A stretch of 64,000 nt of DNA. Source: Thelephora terrestris. Its lineage: Eukaryota > Basidiomycota > Agaricomycetes > Thelephorales > Thelephoraceae. Of the stretch, positions 9,244-26,098 are shown in pieces. The notes beneath the pieces were generated by a model that was not told the DNA's origin, ran no database searches, and worked only from the letters and a program-made list of their open reading frames with translations. A program made the position numbers and the translations under genes. The stretch is taken from NCBI GenBank assembly GCA_015956445.1, contig WIUZ02000020.1, forward strand, positions 372,001 through 436,000. The letters run 5' to 3'. Positions within the stretch are counted from its first letter, which is position 1. Each line of letters begins with the position of its first letter.

Positions 9244-10463
9244 TCAACAAACACGATCGGCAGCGGGAGAAGGAGGGTCAGAAGGGGGGAGCGGCACACG
9301 TTCTTCCTCCTCTTCAGGGACGTTGTTGTAGATGGCTTCCTCCCTTGAGACCTTCGCAGAGAATGAGGAAAGGGCGCTAAAGATCGAATTCCAGTGGTGC
9401 TCGTTGAGGTCGTTGGCAAGGTAGTCCATAAACTTCACAGTTGTGGGGCCCCAAAACTCGGTGTTGAACTGTTGGCCAGAGGTGATGAAATCACCCGTGG
9501 CATGCATCTTGTAAGCACGTTCGACCTGATAAACACCCGGGTCAGTGATAGGAACAAATGCCGTGAAAAGGGGATGACATACAGCGGCAGTCGCAAGGGC
9601 AAGAACTCCGATCGGTCGGTCTCCAACTCCCGGGTCTTCGCAAGTTGGTGCTTCCATTATGCCTGATGAGGAATAGTAACTGAGGAGTGTTTCAAGGATG
9701 GGATCCGATTGAAAAACCCCGCGCCTCGTCTACATAGAAAGTCAGAAGAGAGTAGGGGAACAATACAAAAAAAAGACGTGCCGTTTTGTATCCACCAACT
9801 CCGGGGTGATTCGGAATGTCGCCCACGACGTATTCGCGCCAGATTATCGGATGGTCCCCATCAGACTTGAAAAGCTGTGTGATGTAGTCAGCCCTTGCAT
9901 GGATGGTGTCGAGCCTCTTCCTGCGGAATGTGTTGGTGAGGTGTCGTTGAACGGCCGTGATAGCAGCAGAAGCGAGGTGGTTGCGAAGGACCCCAAGCGA
10001 GGAGATGGTCTTGTGAAGAGATAAGCATTTGAAAGAGTGCGAGCGAGAGATGCTTACTGGGTGATATACGGCGTCACTGTGCCGGATCCGTGCAGGGAAG
10101 ATGGGATAAACGATGTCATATGATGCTTGGATGGAATCCAGGTCTGTCAGGAACATGGTATTTTTAAACTTTTTATAACACGCTCTTTCTTCGAATTCTT
10201 CTTATCACTTCTTATGTTTGAATGCTTCACATTCCTTATCCTTCACACCATTCATTCAAAACACACACACACGAGCGTACTATTCCAGCGAAGCCACAAC
10301 GAGCTATACAAGTGCTATCTTAGTCCATCAAAAGTCGACTCTATCTACGGCAGGCCTGAAGGTCACCAAACGTCCATCTCGGAGATCGTAGTGCTGGCCC
10401 CTCCTCGCTAGGACCTCCCCAAACATGGCGTCACCATCTTCGGCACTCAGCTGAACAACTAGT

Positions 10464-12067
10464 TCAAGCCGATAGGAAGAGACTCCTTCGAGCGGACCGA
10501 TCAGCCTCCCAGATGTCACCGAACTGCTGAACACCTGATCCCACATCGCCATCACCGGGTGACTGCTCGACAGTACTGTCGACGTAGTCGGCAAGCGACC
10601 CTCCGTCTCCCTCATCGGACCCCTGGGTGGGATCCTGTCTTGCGAGGCGAAGCTGGTGTCGGAGTTGGATCTCGGACTCGACCTGTCGGTAAGGACGGTT
10701 GACCCGATAGCGGAACTCTCGTCCCCCACCTCGACCAGACTGGTCACCATCCGACTCAACTGGTCGAGGGTAAGGATTAGCCGATGGAGCCATGCGATGA
10801 GCAGGACGGCGTCGAGAGCGTTTGCAACGTTGCCCCTTAGTCACCGGACGTACCTCGGCGACCCTCGGAGCATCTTCGGCTCGGTCAACCTCCATGACCT
10901 CATCCTCGATCTTCACCAACTGATGGATCGGCTGCAAGACGCAGCGCCCACAGTTCTCCTTGTCGGAAGCAGCCAAGGTGGAAGCCGGACCTGGAGTCGG
11001 AACGGGAACCGCGTTCTCGATCGGAGGCGTCGCATAGGACGACGGGTTAGGCGATGGGAGTACCACTTCGTCGGCGTACTCCAACTCGAACGGAACATCG
11101 GCGGTCCCCTGACCAACCAACTTGGGACCCTCCTTACAGTTGCAGGTCTTGTCCTGCAAGGACTCGACTTGCGCTGTCAACACAGCCACCACGTTCTCGA
11201 GTTCTTCGGTCTAGGAAATGTCAGCTTCCATCATTCTAAGCAATGATGAAAGCGGCATTACCTTTTCATCCCTCCTGGCCAACGCCCCCTTAATGTTGTT
11301 ATCCCTAACCTTCAACCCGGCGATCAACTCTTGATGGTTGGCGACCATAGCCTCCAACGCCTCGTTTGTCCCCTGCTGGAAGGCCGCCAAGGTCTCCTTC
11401 ATCTGAAGACCCTCCGCCGACAAACGAAGAACGTCTGCCTTCGCCTCCTTCACCTCGCGCTCCAAACGTTCAACCTAGGCAGTTTGATTAGTCGAGAGTC
11501 ATACTCGAATATTCAAACAGAGAACCTACTTTGCTCTCCCCCTCCCGAACGAGCGACCACAATAACGACGTGGCAGCAGTGGCATGGCGGACAGCCCGAG
11601 GAACAGTCGCTCCGTGCTCCAACAGGTCCTGATCATAGATTCCCCTTTGCAGGGTGTACCAGAGCTCCTTCTTGATTGGATGCTCCAACTCTCCGAACCT
11701 ACCCCTCATCTGGAAGGCCACCTTCTCGGCTATGATCGTGCGGACCCAGAGCTCATCATCCCAGGTTAACCCCATCAAATGAGGCATCGTCTCCCTGAGA
11801 CGTTCGGCGTCCACCTCCGTGATGACCTCCAAGATCTAGAAGCCGTTAGCTGGACATCAACGCCCAAAAGAACGTAACCTCTACCTAGAGGAAGGCGTTA
11901 GTGCTAGCACACAAAGCTCTAAGTCTCCCCCATACCTGGTCATCTGTGGTATAGGGAGTCCCCGCCGCACAGGCATAGGTCTTACGGGCGGTGGCACGAC
12001 GGTCGATACGGGAGATGGTGGAGATACCATTGGCAACTTTGTAGGTGTGGTTGTTGGGGAAGGACAT
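10464..12067 (-). CDS. Transposable-element-carried coiled-coil protein, function unknown
   Basis: Four exons with phase-0 introns: 12067-11936, 11835-11530, 11474-11262, 11210-10464, giving 465 residues. The first 150 residues form an apparently globular region (TTDDQ, MPHLMGLTWDDELWVRTII, KKELWYTLQRGIYDQDLLE). Next comes a long heptad-like helix of about 110 residues (VERLEREVKEAKADVLRL, TEELENVVAVLTAQVESL), then a Cys-containing hinge (KTCNCKEG). The remainder is a polar disordered tail with a basic patch (KGQRCKRSRRRPAHR) and an Arg-rich stretch. A TATA box GGCTATAAG (minus strand, 12135-12143) lies about 70 bases upstream of the ATG. The globular-plus-coiled-coil layout loosely recalls retroelement Gag proteins, but there is no zinc knuckle, protease or polymerase. 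It is the only gene of the 3.3-kb element. Confidence 0.7.
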
Positions 12068-12134
12068 GTTTTGGTAAGATGATGGGGAAGTTGCTGGTGT
12101 TGCTGATCAAGGATGGCTCCAAGAAGACGTCCTT

Positions 12135-12143
12135 CTTATAGCC
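12135..12143 (-). promoter_or_regulatory. TATA box of the element-carried gene
   Basis: GGCTATAAG on the minus strand, about 70 bases ahead of the ATG at 12067. It indicates that the element supplies its own RNA polymerase II promoter. Confidence 0.5.
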
Positions 12144-14369
12144 TAGATCGGTGATCCTTCACGTGACCTACCTCGACGAACCTCATTGGTCCGGGTCACA
12201 TCAACTTCCGCCCCTGTACCATCATCGTTGGCTTACTACATCAAGCTGACACCTCGGCCCGCGGGACGGCCTTGGAAGAACTTCGTTCCGGAACGCCTAG
12301 AACACGCGCGCACTAAAAATAGGTCTCAAGACCCTGATGACCCCTTTATGACATCACGAACCCCTTTTTACGACCCCTCATGACTTTACGATTACGATCA
12401 ACCCTGGACCCTGGTCACGCACGTGGACAGTCACATCACAGTCTCCTAACTGGAGGAAGGACTCGCCGCTATTCGGAAGCATCGCCTTAGGATCCTTCTG
12501 GTTAGCCCAGCGCATGTGGAGTAGCCGTTAGCGTGAAACGCCGGCGAATCTGTAATCCCTCATGTCCCATGAGTCTAGGCCCGACCTCCTCATGTTTGGA
12601 CGTACGTTGAGGTTGCCACTTGTCCGTGATGCTGTTACCGCCTACAGACAACAAGGGATGTTGAATGTCTCTACTCCCGAATCCAGCTGGCAGAGGCCAT
12701 GTAAAGGGAGATTGACACCTGGCCCTTGGGTGAGATCCCCAGGTACGAACTTTCACGACCCCATGCCCCTTTTTCTTTTTGGACTAGTGTTATCTTTACC
12801 CCTATGTTTCATGCGGACATTTCTTATCTCTTATGCAATCCTTCACACACTAGTAAGGCCCTTTGTCCTTTATTCTCCCACGCGTCATAATTGTTCGCTT
12901 CCCTTACTTAGTGTTCACACGCTCCTTATCTCCCTTTGTTCTGGCTTGATAAGGGTATATTAGGGTATTGACGTCATGGCCACTCCTTTAGTATAAGTAG
13001 CAACTGTGGCTGTATCGTAGTACCTTAGTTTTGTTACCTCAGGAAATCCTCTGCCCTTCTCAGCCCAGTTGCAGTTAAGGCCAAGTCAGAGTTTCTTGTT
13101 TGATCCAAGACATCCCCCATCTGCTCTCCCTCCCGCTCTGCGCGTCAACTGCGCCTCGTAACTATAGACTCTCAGCAGTCATATTAGAACACCTCGAGCG
13201 TCCAGTCGATCAACTGGTGGAGTCATCAATCCTGTTGTAGGGATCAACCCTTGTTTGTTAAACCGAACGAAGTACGGTTTAGGTTGGGTTTCTCTTTAGG
13301 ATTTCGACCTGACTTGCAGTGACCTCGGACAACCTACCGGAAGAATAGAGACGTGATCGTTCTCTCACAAGCTAGTTGGACTAGTGAGTACTCTGCGGAG
13401 TCGGCTCAGTGCACTGGTAGTTGTTGGGGTAGAGTGGCCCTGACAAGGTCTGGGTTAGTCCAGGGTGCCTCCGAATTGGCAACCTGCTTCATCACATAGC
13501 GGATGAATTCGTTACGGAAGCCGGCACGAAGATGTGCTGGGAGGTCTTTGATGCCAGGATACACTCTCGTCCCCTTCTGGACCCTTGCAAGGGTGAAAGT
13601 CGGGAGAGGGTTGTCCTCAAACTAGAGAAAGGGCGTTAACGAGTAAAAGAAGTGAGGGTTGGGCGATAAAGTAGCTTACACTTGCTGTGCTTGAAAACGA
13701 GCGAGGAATCATTGGAGCTGAGGCCGATCGTGGCAACCCGCTGCGGTCCAGAGTTCGAACCGAGGCTGAGGCTGAGCGTGGCAACTTGCTGCGGTTTGGG
13801 GTTCGAGCTGAGGCCGAGCGTGGCACTTCTTCATGGTCCGGAGTTCGTAGGTTGAGGGTCACAGATCGGGGCTGTAAGGTGCCATAGGGCGACTGGATCA
13901 TGGTTCTCCAGTCGTCGACAAGCCCCGTGGCAGAAGGTTGTGCCATTGATGAGGACTCAAATGGGTCGATTGCCCGTGATCGCTTCAACCTAAAAGTGTG
14001 CCATCAGTAGGTACGGGGGAGGTTGGAAAGTTGAGGGAACAGAACGGACTTGGATGTTGTATGAGAGCTCGATTTCTTCCGTTTGGTACCGACCGGTGGC
14101 GTCTCGTCAACGTCGGTTGTGGGTTCGGTATCACCACCGGCATCGAGCGAAGCTTGTGTGAGATTGTCACCCGATGAAGATTCGTTGGAACGGCTCTGAG
14201 AAAAATTGAGTGCTCTAATGAGGAAGGGGGCGGAGAATCAGCTTACATAGATAGCTTCCTGGGCAGCACGGAGCTCGGCCTTCAAAGCGGCAATCTCCTT
14301 AGCCATTGTCATCTTCACTGGCTTTGCTGGGCGAGAGAGGCCGACGGATGCGAGTTGTGAAGGTGTCAT

Positions 14370-15110
14370 ATCCGGGGCCCCAGGGTGTGCACTCTTGTTT
14401 TTGAGCGAGTAGCTGGTGGAGGCATTGAGAGAGTTGTTGGTAGTGGGAGGGAAATAAGTATAGAATGAGACTGGGGTAACTTGGGAGAAAGGTGGGCTGT
14501 ATTTATACGCCGAGAGAAACAGAGTGGGGTCCATGTCGGCTGGTGAGACGTCTTTGAGGCACAAGATGCTGCAGGTCGGCAACGAGCACGGTGGTGCATG
14601 ATGGGGGTTTGAAAAGGCGAGGCCGTACGTTGAATAAGTCGAGGTTGCGTGTCGGACGAGTCGAGGCTGCACATCGGACAGGTCGAGGCTGCGCGTCGGA
14701 CAAGTTGAGGCTGCACTTTGGGTAAGTTGAGGCCGCGTGTCGAGCGGTTCACACCCGTCACGCGGCTTCGGCTCATCGCGCACAAGTCCCTTCTTCCCAT
14801 TCTACGTGGCATTGATAAGCCACGCCGTCTCAACATTCCATTGATAAGCCGCAACTCCTATCTTCGCCGCAACTCCTATCTTCGCCGCAACTCCTATCTT
14901 CGCCGCAACTCCTATCTTCGCCGCAACTCCTATCTTCGCCGCAACTCCTATCTTCGCCGCAACTCCTATCTTCGCCGCAACTCCTATCTTCATCACGTCA
15001 AGTTGAAGAAAAGCTGCGGAACCTCAGCGTGGCATTGATAAGCCCACGGCGTTCCCTTCAAAAACTCCCTCTCCGACGACCTCTCTCAGCCTCCAACCCT
15101 CTCTTTGAGG
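14370..15110. other. Intergenic region with divergent promoters
   Basis: The left part holds the minus-strand TATA box at 14499-14508. The middle has scattered copies of GTCGAGGCTGC-like motifs and three copies of CATTGATAAGCC near 14809, 14839 and 15031. The 18-base repeat array is annotated separately. No gene is supported here. Confidence 0.5.
14848..14991. repeat. 18-base tandem repeat, eight copies
   Basis: GCCGCAACTCCTATCTTC is repeated eight times with essentially no divergence just upstream of the second Plavaka transposase gene. Both strands are open through it (Asn-Ser-Tyr-Leu units on plus, Lys-Ile-Gly-Val-Ala-Ala on minus), but neither frame shows other coding evidence. It may be a recently expanded minisatellite or a subterminal repeat of the element. 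Confidence 0.9.
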
Positions 15111-19720: not shown

Positions 19721-20073
19721 TGTTGAGCAGGTAGGCAGTATATTCTATACTACTACATGGCATACTCTAGTTCTTACCTGAGAGGGGAGGATATAATAGT
19801 GCAAGTGGGAGAGAGAGAGAAGCGATTGATTGATCTATGGACACATGAGGGGTATATATACTATCTACTCTATTACCGTCACATCTATACAGTGTGACTG
19901 ATACATGGTCCGTGCGGCGGCTTAAGGCACGCGCGCGTTATACCGATCGATCGGGTCACTGATGTGACTCCGTCCCTTCGGGTCGCTTTATTCAGCGCTC
20001 TCCGGCATCGGTTCTCGCTTAAAGCGGTAGAGCCGGTTGACCCGTTTGCCGGGCACAGACCTTCGGTTCAACA
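19721..20073 (-). repeat. 3' LTR of the Copia element
   Basis: 353 bases. In the element's own direction this copy is the 3' LTR. It contains GGTATATATACTATC, an alternating purine/pyrimidine stretch (GCACGCGCGCGTTATACC), and GAGAGAGAGAGAAG. Confidence 0.97.
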
Positions 20074-20082
20074 CTCCCCCTT
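20074..20082 (-). other. Polypurine tract of the Copia element
   Basis: AAGGGGGAG on the minus strand directly precedes the 3' LTR, the expected place and composition for the plus-strand primer of reverse transcription. Confidence 0.7.
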
Positions 20083-20149
20083 ACTAAGTACAGCTCCCTG
20101 TATAACTTCATTGGTGGGAACTGGACTGTAGTAAGTTGAAGGTGTGTGC

Positions 20150-23100
20150 TCAGAAGAATTCAAGGCCTAAGGCATCTCTAAATTTTCTGAGTTTGACGAC
20201 TCCAAGGTTCTTCGTCAGGAGATCCGCGGGATTGTCATCTCCGGGAATGAAATACACTACCACGCGTCCATCATTGATGACTTCGCGAATATAATGATAG
20301 CGTATGTCGATGTGTTTCGACCTCTTTTCAGTGACCGGGTTTGAGGCGATAAAGATCGAGCCTTGGTTATCTCCGCAGATTGGGATGGCTTTAAGGTCAT
20401 AGCCGAGCTCCCCCAGAAGGGTATGCATCCAGACTACTTGGCGGCTACAATCGGAGAGCGCCATGTATTCAGCCTCAGTGGACGATAGCGCAATGGTTTT
20501 CTGCGCTCTTGAGGTCCATGAGATGAGCCCCTTTGCCATTCGGACAAAGTATCCACTTTGGGATCGTCTCTGAGTGGGGTCTGAAGCCCAGTCTGAGTCG
20601 GTACAGGCTGAGATACCTTCCCGTGAATCTCCGTCGTAGGTTAATCAATATTTGGAAGTCCCGATTAAATAGCGGCAGATATACAGCGCTTTCTCGACGT
20701 GCTCTTTTGATGGGTTTGCAGCATATTGCGCAAGTTTGGTAACCGCAAAGGCAATATCTGGTCGGGTACCCAGCATGAGGTATAGTAAGGAACCAATTAT
20801 GGTTTGGAACCTGCTTCGTCTTTCCGGGCATGTTACCTCTGTCGACGGAGTCGGCACATACCCGGCCGGGAGAGGGGTTGCTGCGACTTTAGCGTTTTGC
20901 ATCCCACATCGCTCAAGGACCGTTTGAAGGTAGGCGCATTGATCTATGGAGATTTTGCTGCCATGTCGGGTGATCCTCATGCGGAGGAAATCGGTTAGGT
21001 CCCCTAAATCCCTGGTTTCCCATATCTTCATAAACTCCCCCTTGAGCTGCTCCGTAAGCGCTGTGTGGGGTCCGGTAAAGATGGCATCGTCTACGTAGAT
21101 TAAAGCAATTACAAATCTTCCATCTTTATCCTGGTAGATGAAGATCCCAGCATCTGAGCTTAAGGATTTGAATCCGAGCTTTTCCATGGACCGTTTCAGG
21201 GCTCGCCACCATGCGAGCCCGGCTTGTTTCAGTCCGTAGAGGGCACGCTTTAAGCGGAGAACATGAGTCTCTTTTCCTGGAGCTACGAATCCCTCTGGTT
21301 GTTCCATGTATATTTCCTCGTCGAGTTCGCCGTATAGGTACGCGTTCCGAACATCAAGTCCTTTGAGGACCCATCCTTCGAGGGCGGCCATTGCAAATAT
21401 TAGGCGCACTGTCTCGAATCGGACAACGGGGGAGAACACAGCATCGTAGTCCATTCCCTCAACCTGTGAGAAGCCTTTTGCTACTAAGCGGGCTTTCTTT
21501 CGACCATCTGGTTTCTGGTCGAATACCCAGCGGTTTTTGATAACTTTGCGGCCTCGAGGGCGCTCTACCAGGTCGTATACTTTGCGCCTGCGAAGAGCTT
21601 CCAACTCTTCGTTGCAGGCTGTCCTCCATTCCTCGAGCTCTGCCTGTGGTAGTGTGGCGATGTCTCGGTATTTCCATTCTTTTGGAGTTTTTTCGTTGGC
21701 GGTTGGTGAGACGGCTTTCGAAATTAAGAGGTTTTGGAGTTCTACTCCCCCTTCCCGGCATAGCCTAGCTAGAAGGGCGTCAGTGTCCTCCTCAGGGGTG
21801 GTGAATCCGGATGGTTCAACGGACTTCTCAACCTCATCTTCGGATTCTGACGCCGCTTCAGTCCCTTCCTCAGCGGAGGATTCTCTCTCAGGAAGTGGCT
21901 GCGTGCTAGGTCCGGGAACTGCTCCTGAACTTCGCCCGCGCCTAGGTGCTACGGAAAAATCTCCGACAACCTTCTTCCAATCCTTCATACGCCGGGTAGA
22001 CTTAATTATCTCTACCGGATGCTTACTACCGTAAACATTGCCGGGCTTGGCCGGTACTTTCCGCTCACGCTGGGGCCTCCGAGTTTTAACAGGTGACGGA
22101 GGCATAATCGTCGGCGGGGCGGGTGGTGCATCCTCAGGGCCGGAATCAGAGCTAGAGCTGGGCGTAGGCGATCTCGGCGGCTCCGAACTGGGCGCTCGAG
22201 ATTGCACCGGCGTTTGTGGCCGTGGTGCGGGCTCAATGGCACGTTCCTTGCCTTTTGAGGAAGGCTTGGGGGTAGGTTTGGGACGCGCCGAGGGTGCTGC
22301 GTCATCTTCCTCTTGTCCTCCCGGAAGGGGACACTGGCAGTCACCGTCTTCATGACAGTGATGACTGGGTAGGGGTGGCACAGTAGATTGCAGCCGTGTG
22401 TTTCGCCGTACACTGGCAGTTGGGCACTTTGGAAAGTGCAACTCATCGAAGGTGGCCTGAGCAGCGGAGAAAACGATATTGCCAGGTCCGCGCATAAAGA
22501 TCCATCCTTTTCCTCCTGGGTGAGTACCCAGGTAGGTCATCAATTCTGATCGGGGCGCGAGCTTGTTTATCCGTACTTCTTCTGGGATGAAGACGTAGGC
22601 TCCGCAGCCGAAGACCCGAAGGTGATCAATCGAAGGCTTGCTTCCATTTAACAGTTGGAATGGAGTCTGCCAGTTTAGGCGACGGTTCGGCGTTCGATTG
22701 TAAACGTGAGTTGCGTGGTCAAGGGCGAATTCCCACCAAGATTGAGGGAGGCAAGCCTGTAACCTCATGGATTCCGCCTTATCCATCAATGTTCGAATGA
22801 TCCTTTCCGCGCGACCATTTTGTTGGTGTGCATGCGGGATAGACTGGAGGATCTCAATCCCTTTTTCCTTGAGCATTGTTGTAAAAGCCAGGGACGTGTA
22901 CTCCCCTCCGGCATCGGACATCCATCGGCGTACTCTCTTCTGGTACTTGGTTTCAACCATAGCCAGGAAGTGTCTGGTAGCCACAAGTGCAGCATCTTTA
23001 GTGCGCAAGTTCATGGTCCAGGCGTGTGAGGTGTAGTCGTCATAAAAAACAATTGAGTACTTGTATTTGCGATAGGATTCGATGGGAAAGGTCTTTAGGT

Positions 23101-25090
23101 CCGAATGGATCAGCTCAAAAGGGGCGCTTGCTCTGGTGTTGGATGGGGGAAAGGGTTTATTTGTCATCTTTCCTTGCGCACATCCAGTGCAGAGGTGCTC
23201 TTTCGGGACTTCAACATGAGGAAAGTCTTTGACATGTTTCCCAGCCTTTTGGATCACCTCTTTTGAGGGGTGAGCCAGTCGGCGGTGCATGATTTCAAAA
23301 CCAGCACTATAAATGGTTTTCATTGTGGCAGCAGTGAGTTGCGCTCCGAGGAAAGTTCTGATGACATAAATACTGTCATCCTCGGTTCGAGGGTGGAAGG
23401 TAAGAAACTCTGTTTCTTCCTCATAGAGTGAGATTTCGCGAGCACTCCCCCTCGAGAAGAGTCCGCTTTTGAGGAACTGACCAAGGGATAGCAGTCTATG
23501 GGAGATGGTTGGGACATGATAGACAGGACTTAGTCGAACGGCCTTTTCGCTTATGTAGAGGATCACTGTCCCTTTACCAATAATCGTCGTGAAGCTGGTC
23601 GCTGTTCTCAAAGGAATGGACTCAATAGCCTCGTACTCCACGAAGTCGTTTATGTCAAAAGTAAAGTGCCGGGATGCCCCAGAATCGAGCATCCACACAG
23701 CTTCAGTTTCACTCGGGGCAGACAAGGTAAAACAAATATATTCGGAAGCAACTACTGAAGAATTATGTACATCTTCAGGTGCTGTGGAGTCGTTAGTTTC
23801 GTCACTCAACACTAAATTTGTTTCATACCTTCCGCCAAGGCCAGACGGTCCGGCAACCGACGCAGGGGAGACAACATCCATCTCATCATCCGACCATCCC
23901 AGGCTCACTTCATCCTCGCCCGGCGGGGTACGCGCCTTTTTGCGGGGGCGAGGATCAACGGTCTGCTCGTAAGAGCGCTCCAGCCTTTTGAGGGTCTCAA
24001 TCGAAGGCTTTACGCTTATGCGTGCTGCGAGGTCCCTAGCCTCCTGTACGGAGGGGTAGAAGGAAGGGGCCCCTGCGCCTTGTCGATGGACGGGGGAATG
24101 TCGTATGGGAAAAGCCGCCATGGAGGCAAAACCGTAATCCGAGACCGAGATGTTAGAGCCGGAGGGAATCGGAGGCTGTGGAGGAGGTGGCGCCTTAGAC
24201 TCATCAGTTTGCTGAGCCTGCTGCTGGAATCTTCCTCGACCTCCCCTTTGTCCTCGACGATTTCGTCCTCGGCCTTGGCCCTGGGGTTGGCTCCCGTCGT
24301 GCTGCTGTTGCTGCTGGAAATTTGGGTTTCCAGGGGCGCGCTGTACATTGGACAACTTTTGTGCTTGTTGTCCGGAGCGACGGGAGCTGGATTTCTGTTC
24401 CCAGGCCAGTTTGACCATTTTCCTTAGCTCATCGATCTGGACTTTACCGATATCGTCGGCTTGGCAGAGGATCTGGGCAAGGTAATCGTAGGCAGGGGGC
24501 ATCCGGGAGAGTATCATCATGGCTTTGATGAAATCTGGGACTGCTGCATTTGCTTCAGCAAGTCGACCAAAGTGGGCCATGATTTTGTCTATCGCCGGGA
24601 TGGGGTCCGCATTTCCGGGGATCTGTACGTCTAGAGCGCTTTTGAACTCTGAGTAGATACCCATTACGCCGGGTTTCCCATATTCCGCATCGATTGCCTG
24701 GTATAAGGCCCAAGCGTCCTCTTCGGACTTGTGTTTTGCCTGGATGTCAGGGCTTAGCCTTAGGAATATGTTTCCGAGGGCTTTGGAGTTGTTTTCCTCC
24801 CACGCTTCGAGCGCGTCTTCGTCAATGTCCTCACCGCCCTCCTGTGCCGGAATTTCTTCAGCATCATCGGTGGCAGGGACGGCCGCTATATATGGTCGTA
24901 CCGTTTTGGTGGGCTTTCCCTTCTTCATCAGTCTCCACTGTCCTTGTGCCATCAAGAAGCTTCTGACGGCAGGGGCCCATCGTTGATAGTTGGGGCCTTT
25001 GAGGACGGGGACGAGAGAGGTAAGCTGGGACGACATTTTTTTCTTTGGTTTTTGGGGGGTGGAAGTGCCTACGCCCAAAATAAGAGTCAT
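20150..25090 (-). pseudogene. Copia Gag-Pol polyprotein with one in-frame TGA
   Basis: A single frame of 1,647 codons, open except for one TGA at 20645-20647, between reverse transcriptase and RNase H. The probable start is MSSQLTSLVP; an in-frame ATG lies 18 codons upstream (25090). Gag-like region: residues 1-330, with a Gln/Gly/Arg-rich stretch (GQGRGRNRRGQRGGRGRF) but no CCHC zinc knuckle. Protease: WMLDSGASRHFT. Integrase: zinc-binding HRRLAHPSKE and CTGCAQGK, then Asp in HSDLKTF, Asp in MSDAGGEY and Glu in NGRAERI. Reverse transcriptase: NRWVFDQKPDGRKKARLVAK, DVRNAYLYGELDEEIYMEQP, and the catalytic YVDD. RNase H: ACTDSDWASD and the signature SSTEAEYMAL. The TGA would yield a 1,481-residue product lacking RNase H. 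This is probably a new nonsense mutation; readthrough cannot be excluded. Confidence 0.92.
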
Positions 25091-25730
25091 CAGTTAATGA
25101 ATGCTTCTATGCCAAAATGCAATGAAAGAGGGAAGAATTTAGTCTTTTTCCCCTTTTTTAAGGATTTCTTTAGTGAGAGGTTTATTGCGTGTTGCCTCAG
25201 TCCACACCGTCGGCAGATGTTAATCGACTACCCTCCCCTTATGGGGTCTACGAATGTGTGTTGTGCTCAGCTTAGCCAATCACTGTTTCATCCCTTTTTG
25301 GGTTTTTGACTTTTTGTTCTAAGTCCCCTTCCTGCGCAGTGGATAGGCGAAGGTTTATTGACATGTCTAAAAGAAGTACTGCTTAGGGACGCGACGTATG
25401 ACTCGTCGTGGTCCGCCTTCTTGGGCGCGCTTTGTCATCTCCTTTAGTACGTATCTAATACGCATCCTGAGGTTATCCCCTTTTCCCAAGTCCAGCGCTC
25501 TAAGCTCCTTTGGAGGTGGCGTTTGGTCGATGAGGGTAGGTTCGTTTTCCATATTCTTTTGATGAGGGGTAAGCCTACAAATCAAAAAGAACGTGGTGAA
25601 TAGCGCTTTCTAAGCAGGTAGACAGTCAAGCCTGGATAGCGCAGTGGCAGCCACAGAGGGCGCACTAAGGTAAGATTAGAGCCTGTTCACAGCGCAGCCA
25701 TAGAGGCGCAGCTTGGAACACAGGGCGTAG

Positions 25731-25745
25731 CCCGGGCTCATAACC
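25731..25745 (-). other. Primer binding site matching the initiator tRNA-Met anticodon region
   Basis: Directly after the 5' LTR the minus strand reads GGTTATGAGCCCGGG. Its complement, CCCGGGCTCATAACC, resembles the anticodon stem-loop (CAT anticodon) of initiator tRNA-Met rather than a tRNA 3' end. Drosophila copia and some fungal elements are known to prime from a cleaved initiator tRNA half. Confidence 0.6.
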
Positions 25746-26098
25746 TGTTGAGCAGGTAGGCAGTATATTCTATACTACTACATGGCATACTCTAGTTCTT
25801 ACCTGAGAGGGGAGGATATAATAGTGCAAGTGGGAGAGAGAGAGAAGCGATTGATTGATCTATGGACACATGAGGGGTATATATACTATCTACTCTATTA
25901 CCGTCACATCTATACAGTGTGACTGATACATGGTCCGTGCGGCGGCTTAAGGCACGCGCGCGTTATACCGATCGATCGGGTCACTGATGTGACTCCGTCC
26001 CTTCGGGTCGCTTTATTCAGCGCTCTCCGGCATCGGTTCTCGCTTAAAGCGGTAGAGCCGGTTGACCCGTTTGCCGGGCACAGACCTTCGGTTCAACA
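25746..26098 (-). repeat. 5' LTR of the Copia element
   Basis: 353 bases, identical by eye to the copy at 19721-20073. It serves as the 5' LTR and promoter in the minus direction. Confidence 0.97.

Follow-up and report, generated by a model that had tools for sequence, protein, structure and literature searches.

Tf1 and sushi represent the self-priming type of chromovirus. Among elements with long terminal repeats (LTRs) of other kinds, large retrotransposon derivatives (LARDs) have very long LTRs and no internal coding sequence, mouse mammary tumor virus (MMTV) has a protein gene, sag, within the U3 (unique 3′) region of its LTR, on the sense strand and encoding a superantigen, and just part of the human T-cell leukemia virus type 1 (HTLV-1) gene hbz lies in the LTR. 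Here we describe a 3,301-bp unit in a 64,000-nucleotide stretch of DNA (referred to below as the window; G000:C13:372001-436000) from Thelephora terrestris, which passages of PMC7550596 describe as an ectomycorrhizal basidiomycete, and whose genome was analyzed as 40.6 Mb in 60 contigs. The unit is a solo LTR. We consider it very probable that it derives from a chromovirus whose 3-kb LTRs carry a selected, predicted antisense, intron-containing accessory gene, likely encoding a coiled-coil protein that serves the element.

Passages of PMC7264820 and PMC11963269 describe additional genes antisense to gag-pol in maize Grande (gene23), rice RIRE2, Silene Retand and Botrytis Boty (brtn). Like the T. 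terrestris gene, these are multicopy extra protein genes antisense to gag-pol, and in both cases the function is unknown; according to the same passages, however, they lie between pol and the 3′ LTR, whereas the T. terrestris gene lies inside the LTR and is therefore doubled in each element and retained in solo LTRs. The placement of a whole spliced gene inside the LTR sets it apart from the known antisense additional genes, and in the open-access literature that we searched we came across no account of a gene of this kind, antisense and spliced, within the LTRs of fungi. HTLV-1 hbz, as described in part of PMC10186651, is antisense, has spliced and unspliced forms, is driven from a promoter in the 3′ LTR and encodes a regulatory protein. 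The T. terrestris gene resembles it in being antisense with an LTR promoter, which is predicted here, but differs in lying entirely within the LTR; the likeness considered here is one of layout. It shares its location in U3 with MMTV sag, but sag is read on the sense strand and its superantigen is unrelated.

The LTRs are giant, as in LARDs, but complete T. terrestris elements contain gag-pol. They resemble the Tf1/sushi type in domain order, the chromodomain coming after integrase, in having duplications of 5 bp, and in a putative primer site that could pair with LTR sequence close to the predicted start of the RNA; unlike that type, they have LTRs of 2.9 to 3.3 kb that consist mostly of U3 and bear a gene. 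Solo LTRs are usually viewed as noncoding scars, yet the sampled full-length ones here hold an intact gene, in an arrangement old enough to be common to two diverged families. This makes it testable whether dead copies keep working for live ones. It also accounts for numerous gene models without a name in the T. terrestris genome, where an LTR-borne gene would mislead annotation and orphan-gene counts.

A solo LTR and its complete relatives

An earlier note on the window had delimited the unit by its TGTCAGG/CCTGACA ends, which give it the TG..CA termini of an LTR, and by AGGTC on either side. These limits (Table 1) are correct to the base. The unit comprises one LTR and a target-site duplication, with no internal region. 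When the flanks are joined with one AGGTC, a 207-codon frame spans the junction, in keeping with the in-frame healing claimed in the note, and the joined sequence matches an uninterrupted site in the T. terrestris genome itself at 255 of 255 bases (G000:C12:2491001 onwards), with a single AGGTC. This empty site is a near-identical duplicate, or an allele, without the LTR insertion.

We scored the best 40 of 637 candidates in a search for copies of the full unit, so the full-length count is a lower bound: at least 34 places, the window's own included, span the query from position 1 to either 3299 or 3301, and identity is 93 to 96% in the 33 places outside the window. The first 29 bases of the LTR occur 398 times in the genome with three or fewer mismatches, against 0 for the reversed control; if all 398 LTRs were full length they would occupy about 3% of the genome, which is an upper bound. 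Perfect 5-bp duplications, counted on the flanks, border 31 of the 34 sampled solo copies (the exceptions being L031, L041 and L042), and one solo copy (L030) terminates in CCTGATA instead of CCTGACA. Many copies with the same ends and differing 5-bp duplications are what had been expected of a mobile family.

Three complete elements that we retrieved, on contigs C56, C1 and C12, have two direct 3.3-kb LTRs around about 6.0 kb of gag-pol. They are flanked by whole-element 5-bp duplications (CTGCC, TAATC and CCATC, respectively), and their LTR pairs differ by 0, 2 and 1 substitutions. Further complete elements are indicated by junctions between the LTR and internal sequence, eight in the genome, and by eight pol matches at 98 to 100%, one of which contains a stop. 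The CCHC zinc knuckle of Gag, protease, reverse transcriptase, RNase H, integrase and a chromodomain were matched in the C56 and C1 elements. The order is reverse transcriptase, RNase H, integrase and then chromodomain, and it is by domain content and order that we assign the elements to the Ty3/gypsy chromoviruses. Set against the 398 LTR 5′ ends, eight junctions or pol matches mean that for every complete element there are more than 40 solo or truncated LTRs.

The complete elements bear out the first option of the earlier note, that of a giant solo LTR in which a gene is embedded, and they are the relatives with two copies flanking gag-pol that it had foreseen for this case. Its remark that there were no paired LTRs holds for the window copy and not for the family, whose complete elements carry two; no polymerase was found in the window copy, as stated. 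The other option was a new class of nonautonomous element with an embedded gene. A copy with neither polymerase nor second LTR would suit it, but complete gag-pol elements have this same sequence as their paired LTRs, which rules the candidate out. No new class is needed, given these two-LTR chromoviruses, and we attach a negligible probability to it.

Three further observations concern the family. At G000:C23:1032739-1048058, two gag-pol copies lie in tandem 9.3 kb apart and probably share one LTR. L041 and L042 form an inverted pair of solo LTRs (G000:C23:671349-680594) with flanks that match crosswise, a pattern that an inversion through LTR recombination would be expected to leave. Finally, in L012, L013, L047, L048 and L049, the noncoding U3 stretch upstream of the sense promoter (LTR positions 2286 to 2491 or 2571) has been swapped; by this shared replacement, we class the five as a subfamily.

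The LTR has a predicted sense promoter and self-primer (Table 1). The 12-nucleotide self-primer match occupies LTR positions 2882-2893 and begins 34 bases after the start of the sense TATAAG box. From this spacing, we predict that sense RNA starts near 13025 and primes its own reverse transcription, with a U3 of about 2.88 kb and an R-U5 (repeat and unique 5′ region) of about 0.42 kb. The sense TATA octamer is identical in 42 of 43 aligned copies, and the 16-mer around the primer match is identical in 40 of 43.

The gene predicted within U3

The embedded gene is antisense to gag-pol and spans 12067 down to 10464 or 10328, wholly within U3. A 465-residue frame in four exons, with a TATA box and GT-AG introns, had been reported in the earlier note, and all of these are present in the sequence. 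The model stands in this respect but not at its end, since public gene models end the gene differently: P0007, P0009 and P0020 (31 to 40 members each) and P0055 follow what we call frame B, while P0001 (8 members) follows frame A, that of the 465-residue model. Nor is the gene private to this unit, as it had been called, because hundreds of copies exist in the T. terrestris genome. All four predicted introns begin with GT and end with AG in 40 of 40 copies.

Two overlapping frames of the gene are open in nearly all copies at window positions 10328-10853. The codon phase of frame A persists through the supposed intron 4, with 4, 0 and 12 informative sites at codon positions 1, 2 and 3. The codon-phase signal follows frame A to about 10560 and frame B below, frame B periodicity being clear only from about 10559 downwards. 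Frame A is partly similar in a sister family, described below, and in P0087 (85 of 130 columns, aligned by hand). Two isoforms or an unrecognized splice could lie behind the switch; near 10560 there are many conserved GT..AG pairs that might join frame A to frame B, none of them convincing.

In the predicted structure, a helical N terminus is followed by a coiled coil of 115 residues and by a tail, modeled with low confidence, that includes a basic stretch. The coiled coil is predicted at residues 124-238, and the per-residue confidence (predicted local distance difference test [pLDDT]) is 78 to 94 in blocks covering residues 121-230, against a mean of 52.7 for the whole model. A fold search with this low-confidence model gave no match at an E value of ≤0.001, and Pfam matches to the gene were all under the curated cutoffs. 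On the basis of the model, the product is likely a coiled-coil protein or regulator, and the predicted fold would fit an oligomeric nuclear regulator.

Coding constraint

We assessed intactness of the gene in 40 copies, made up of the 34 full-length places, the window's own among them, and 6 others in which an inner part is deleted or replaced; nested or truncated copies (for example C58:1761357, C1:544783 and small C58 pieces) were left out of the count. Exon lengths are invariant across the 40. Among the 34 full-length copies, gapped columns number 0 in the coding sequence and 31 elsewhere in the LTR, and variable sites make up 21% of first, 11% of second and 59% of third codon positions and 31% of intron positions. 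These patterns indicate that the gene is under purifying selection, and codon phase together with the invariant exon lengths rules out a neutral open frame.

In the analysis of nucleotide diversity (π), rare variants and four-gamete violations given below, each of the three LTR pairs was represented by one LTR. Across the three pairs of elements, four-fold divergence is 0.165, 0.169 and 0.110 in the gene and 0.157, 0.128 and 0.094 in pol, and divergence at codon positions 1 and 2 is 0.018, 0.018 and 0.006 in the gene and 0.009, 0.008 and 0.008 in pol. By these values, the gene keeps time with pol and is under constraint approaching that on pol. We had suspected exceptionally fast synonymous change in the gene from comparison with introns and flanks; this was rejected, pol of the same elements being similar.

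The useful product might instead be an antisense RNA and not a protein, since retroviral antisense transcripts can work as RNA, according to part of PMC10186651. The strong codon-phase signal and the invariant exon lengths speak against this, and we regard it as highly unlikely.

A homologous gene in a sister family

A second family has a pol that is 61 to 62% identical to that of the main family (three copies) and is represented by 116 LTR 5′ ends. The one sister copy examined has two LTRs of 2,932 bp that differ at a single base; it is flanked by an AACTG duplication and has an 11-nucleotide self-primer match. At the DNA level, the sister LTR aligns to the main-family LTR in two stretches only, of 27 and 36 bases. 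It nevertheless contains a homologous antisense gene (tblastn, 8e-18; BLASTP, 3e-33 with 29% identity over 462 columns). A search with a public sister protein (P0073) placed one match to the gene on each side of pol, and antisense to it, in every one of the three complete sister copies (C12:1326958 and 1335721; C5:1120378 and 1129177; C23:1911096 and 1919854). Three phase 0 introns are shared and coincide in position when the two proteins are aligned, the exons measuring 132, 306 and 213 nucleotides in the main family and 135, 330 and 267 in the sister; the exon joins of the public sister model fall at these residues too. The two genes are of shared descent. Since so diverged a family has the homologous gene, the gene is old and housed in the LTR, and it is kept by solo LTRs.

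Relatives elsewhere were sought in three protein searches, each scoring roughly the 8,000 best candidates. Among these, relatives with a named source came from T. terrestris alone, and no full-length copy named to another organism was found. The others were nine JGI proteins on short contigs with 64 to 88% identity (P0076, P0078 to P0084 and P0087) and one short ENA match, P0072, an identical stretch of 28 residues. These results bear on the idea that the gene is recent cargo captured from a host gene. Such capture occurs in plant LTR elements, as stated in part of PMC7264820, but here the sister family has the same gene in the same place, on the same strand and with the same introns, and the searches yielded no full-length counterpart of the kind just mentioned. 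We judge recent capture to be very improbable.

What the gene may do

An accessory gene of the element might work as follows. The gene would be transcribed from its own TATA box, in a direction leading away from the sense promoter. As the 3′ U3 is reverse transcribed, strand transfer would place the gene in both LTRs of each new insertion, and its introns would persist because the genomic RNA that is reverse transcribed is the opposite strand. Recombination between LTRs would then delete gag-pol and leave a single LTR with one copy of the gene. In the weakest step, the protein would act in trans, also from solo LTRs, and its most likely target would be the transcription or silencing of the element in the nucleus. 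We favor a helper or anti-silencing role, with copy-number control as the second choice. More tentatively, the gene of a trans-acting regulator may have moved into the LTR, such that loss of gag-pol makes each dead element a stand-alone regulator; the LTR ends of both families, roughly 500 in this one fungal genome, would possibly mark a distributed anti-silencing or copy-control network operated by solo LTRs.

In yeast Ty1, a truncated Gag controls copy number. By analogy, the U3 protein could be a self-limiting repressor, its gene accumulating in solo LTRs until the product shuts off gag-pol. The 398 LTR 5′ ends against 8 gag-pol copies and the intact gene in sampled solo copies would suit such a repressor. 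On the other hand, the three complete elements are young, with 0 to 2 LTR differences, which implies that the family was active while many copies of the gene probably existed, and we think this explanation rather unlikely. Domestication, in which selection at the level of the host maintains the gene in solo LTRs, draws on frame B being open in 40 of 40 sampled copies and on constraint that is seen even among rare variants. It has to contend with many near-equal copies in place of a single one, with nearly identical LTR pairs in the elements examined, so that the sampled copies are probably young, and with a sister family that retains its own version; we consider it quite improbable.

Several points weigh against an accessory gene serving the element. 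The 40 copies sampled are those of the family that scored best. Of five copies chosen solely for an exact 5′ end, one is broken up by inserts and another is a fragment of 244 bp; the remaining three extend over the full length, have 5-bp duplications and lack stops in the first 336 codons. The two frames give alternative C termini, the splicing, promoter use and translation of the gene are predictions, and fold and domain matching gave nothing indicating function. Outside CpG, introns and LTR flanks diverge about 2 to 15 times less than four-fold sites, with π of about 0.05 to 0.07 in introns and 0.01 to 0.06 in noncoding LTR parts compared with 0.13 at four-fold sites. This suggests constraint outside the codons too, or some process that has been missed. 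Even rare variants are scarce at codon position 2, so that these data do not tell selection on the element from selection on the host. Four-gamete violations among four-fold sites are frequent at all distances, which we read as recurrent change or recombination.

The insertion site and its surroundings

Table 1 Features of the solo LTR and its insertion site (positions in the window)
Feature	Position	Strand	Remarks
Interrupted host gene region	9244..14400	-	Frame regained across joined flanks
Left target-site duplication AGGTC, 5 bp	10140..10144	.	From sequence; present once at empty site
Solo LTR of Ty3/gypsy chromovirus, 3,301 bp	10145..13445	+	Strand is gag-pol sense in complete relatives
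Exon 5, frame B (479-aa model)	10328..10759	-	Open in 40/40 copies
Exon 4, frame A (465-aa model of earlier note, intron 4 retained)	10464..11210	-	Open in 38/40 copies
Possible intron 4, GTACGT...CAG	10760..10853	-	Removed in several public models; codon-periodic in frame A
Exon 3, predicted coiled coil	11262..11474	-	
Exon 2	11530..11835	-	Alternative AG acceptor 49 nt upstream; public models differ here
Exon 1, ATG at 12067	11936..12067	-	
TATAAG box of antisense gene	12135..12140	-	CTATAAGA identical in 43/43 aligned copies
Sense TATAAG box	12992..12997	+	Predicted driver of gag-pol transcript
Predicted self-primer near RNA start, 12 nt	13026..13037	+	TAGTTTTGTTAC, exact complement of internal bases 3-14
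Right duplication AGGTC	13446..13450	.	From sequence and empty site

The removal of the unit restores the frame, as proposed in the earlier note, but the DUF6532 label given there to the interrupted gene was not confirmed. In a Pfam search of the healed host frame, in two pieces with introns kept, DUF6532 was not matched at an E value of ≤0.1, and the two matches seen were below threshold and to other families. The interrupted gene region (window positions 9270-14340) has a duplicate on C12 that is 99 to 100% identical, because of which the host locus may represent either a haplotype left uncollapsed or a segment that was recently duplicated.

The LTR-free C12 allele carries a 501-bp palindromic insert that resembles a miniature inverted-repeat transposable element, with CACTGGGGGCA/TGCCCCCAGTG ends (L063 positions 46-546; G000:C12:2491605-2492105). 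All 40 scored copies of this insert are at ≥95%, and its end sequence also breaks some LTR copies (L052, L053 and L057). Adjoining the interrupted gene, at about 14850-14990 of the window, is a short tandem array of CCGCAACTCCTATCTTCG units. Further along, window positions 20001-26000 include part of another high-copy element; 22 long matches lie elsewhere, and 17 of these are at 95 to 97%. The 255 bp at 25746-26000 are repeated identically at 19721-19975 and are probably the LTR of that element.

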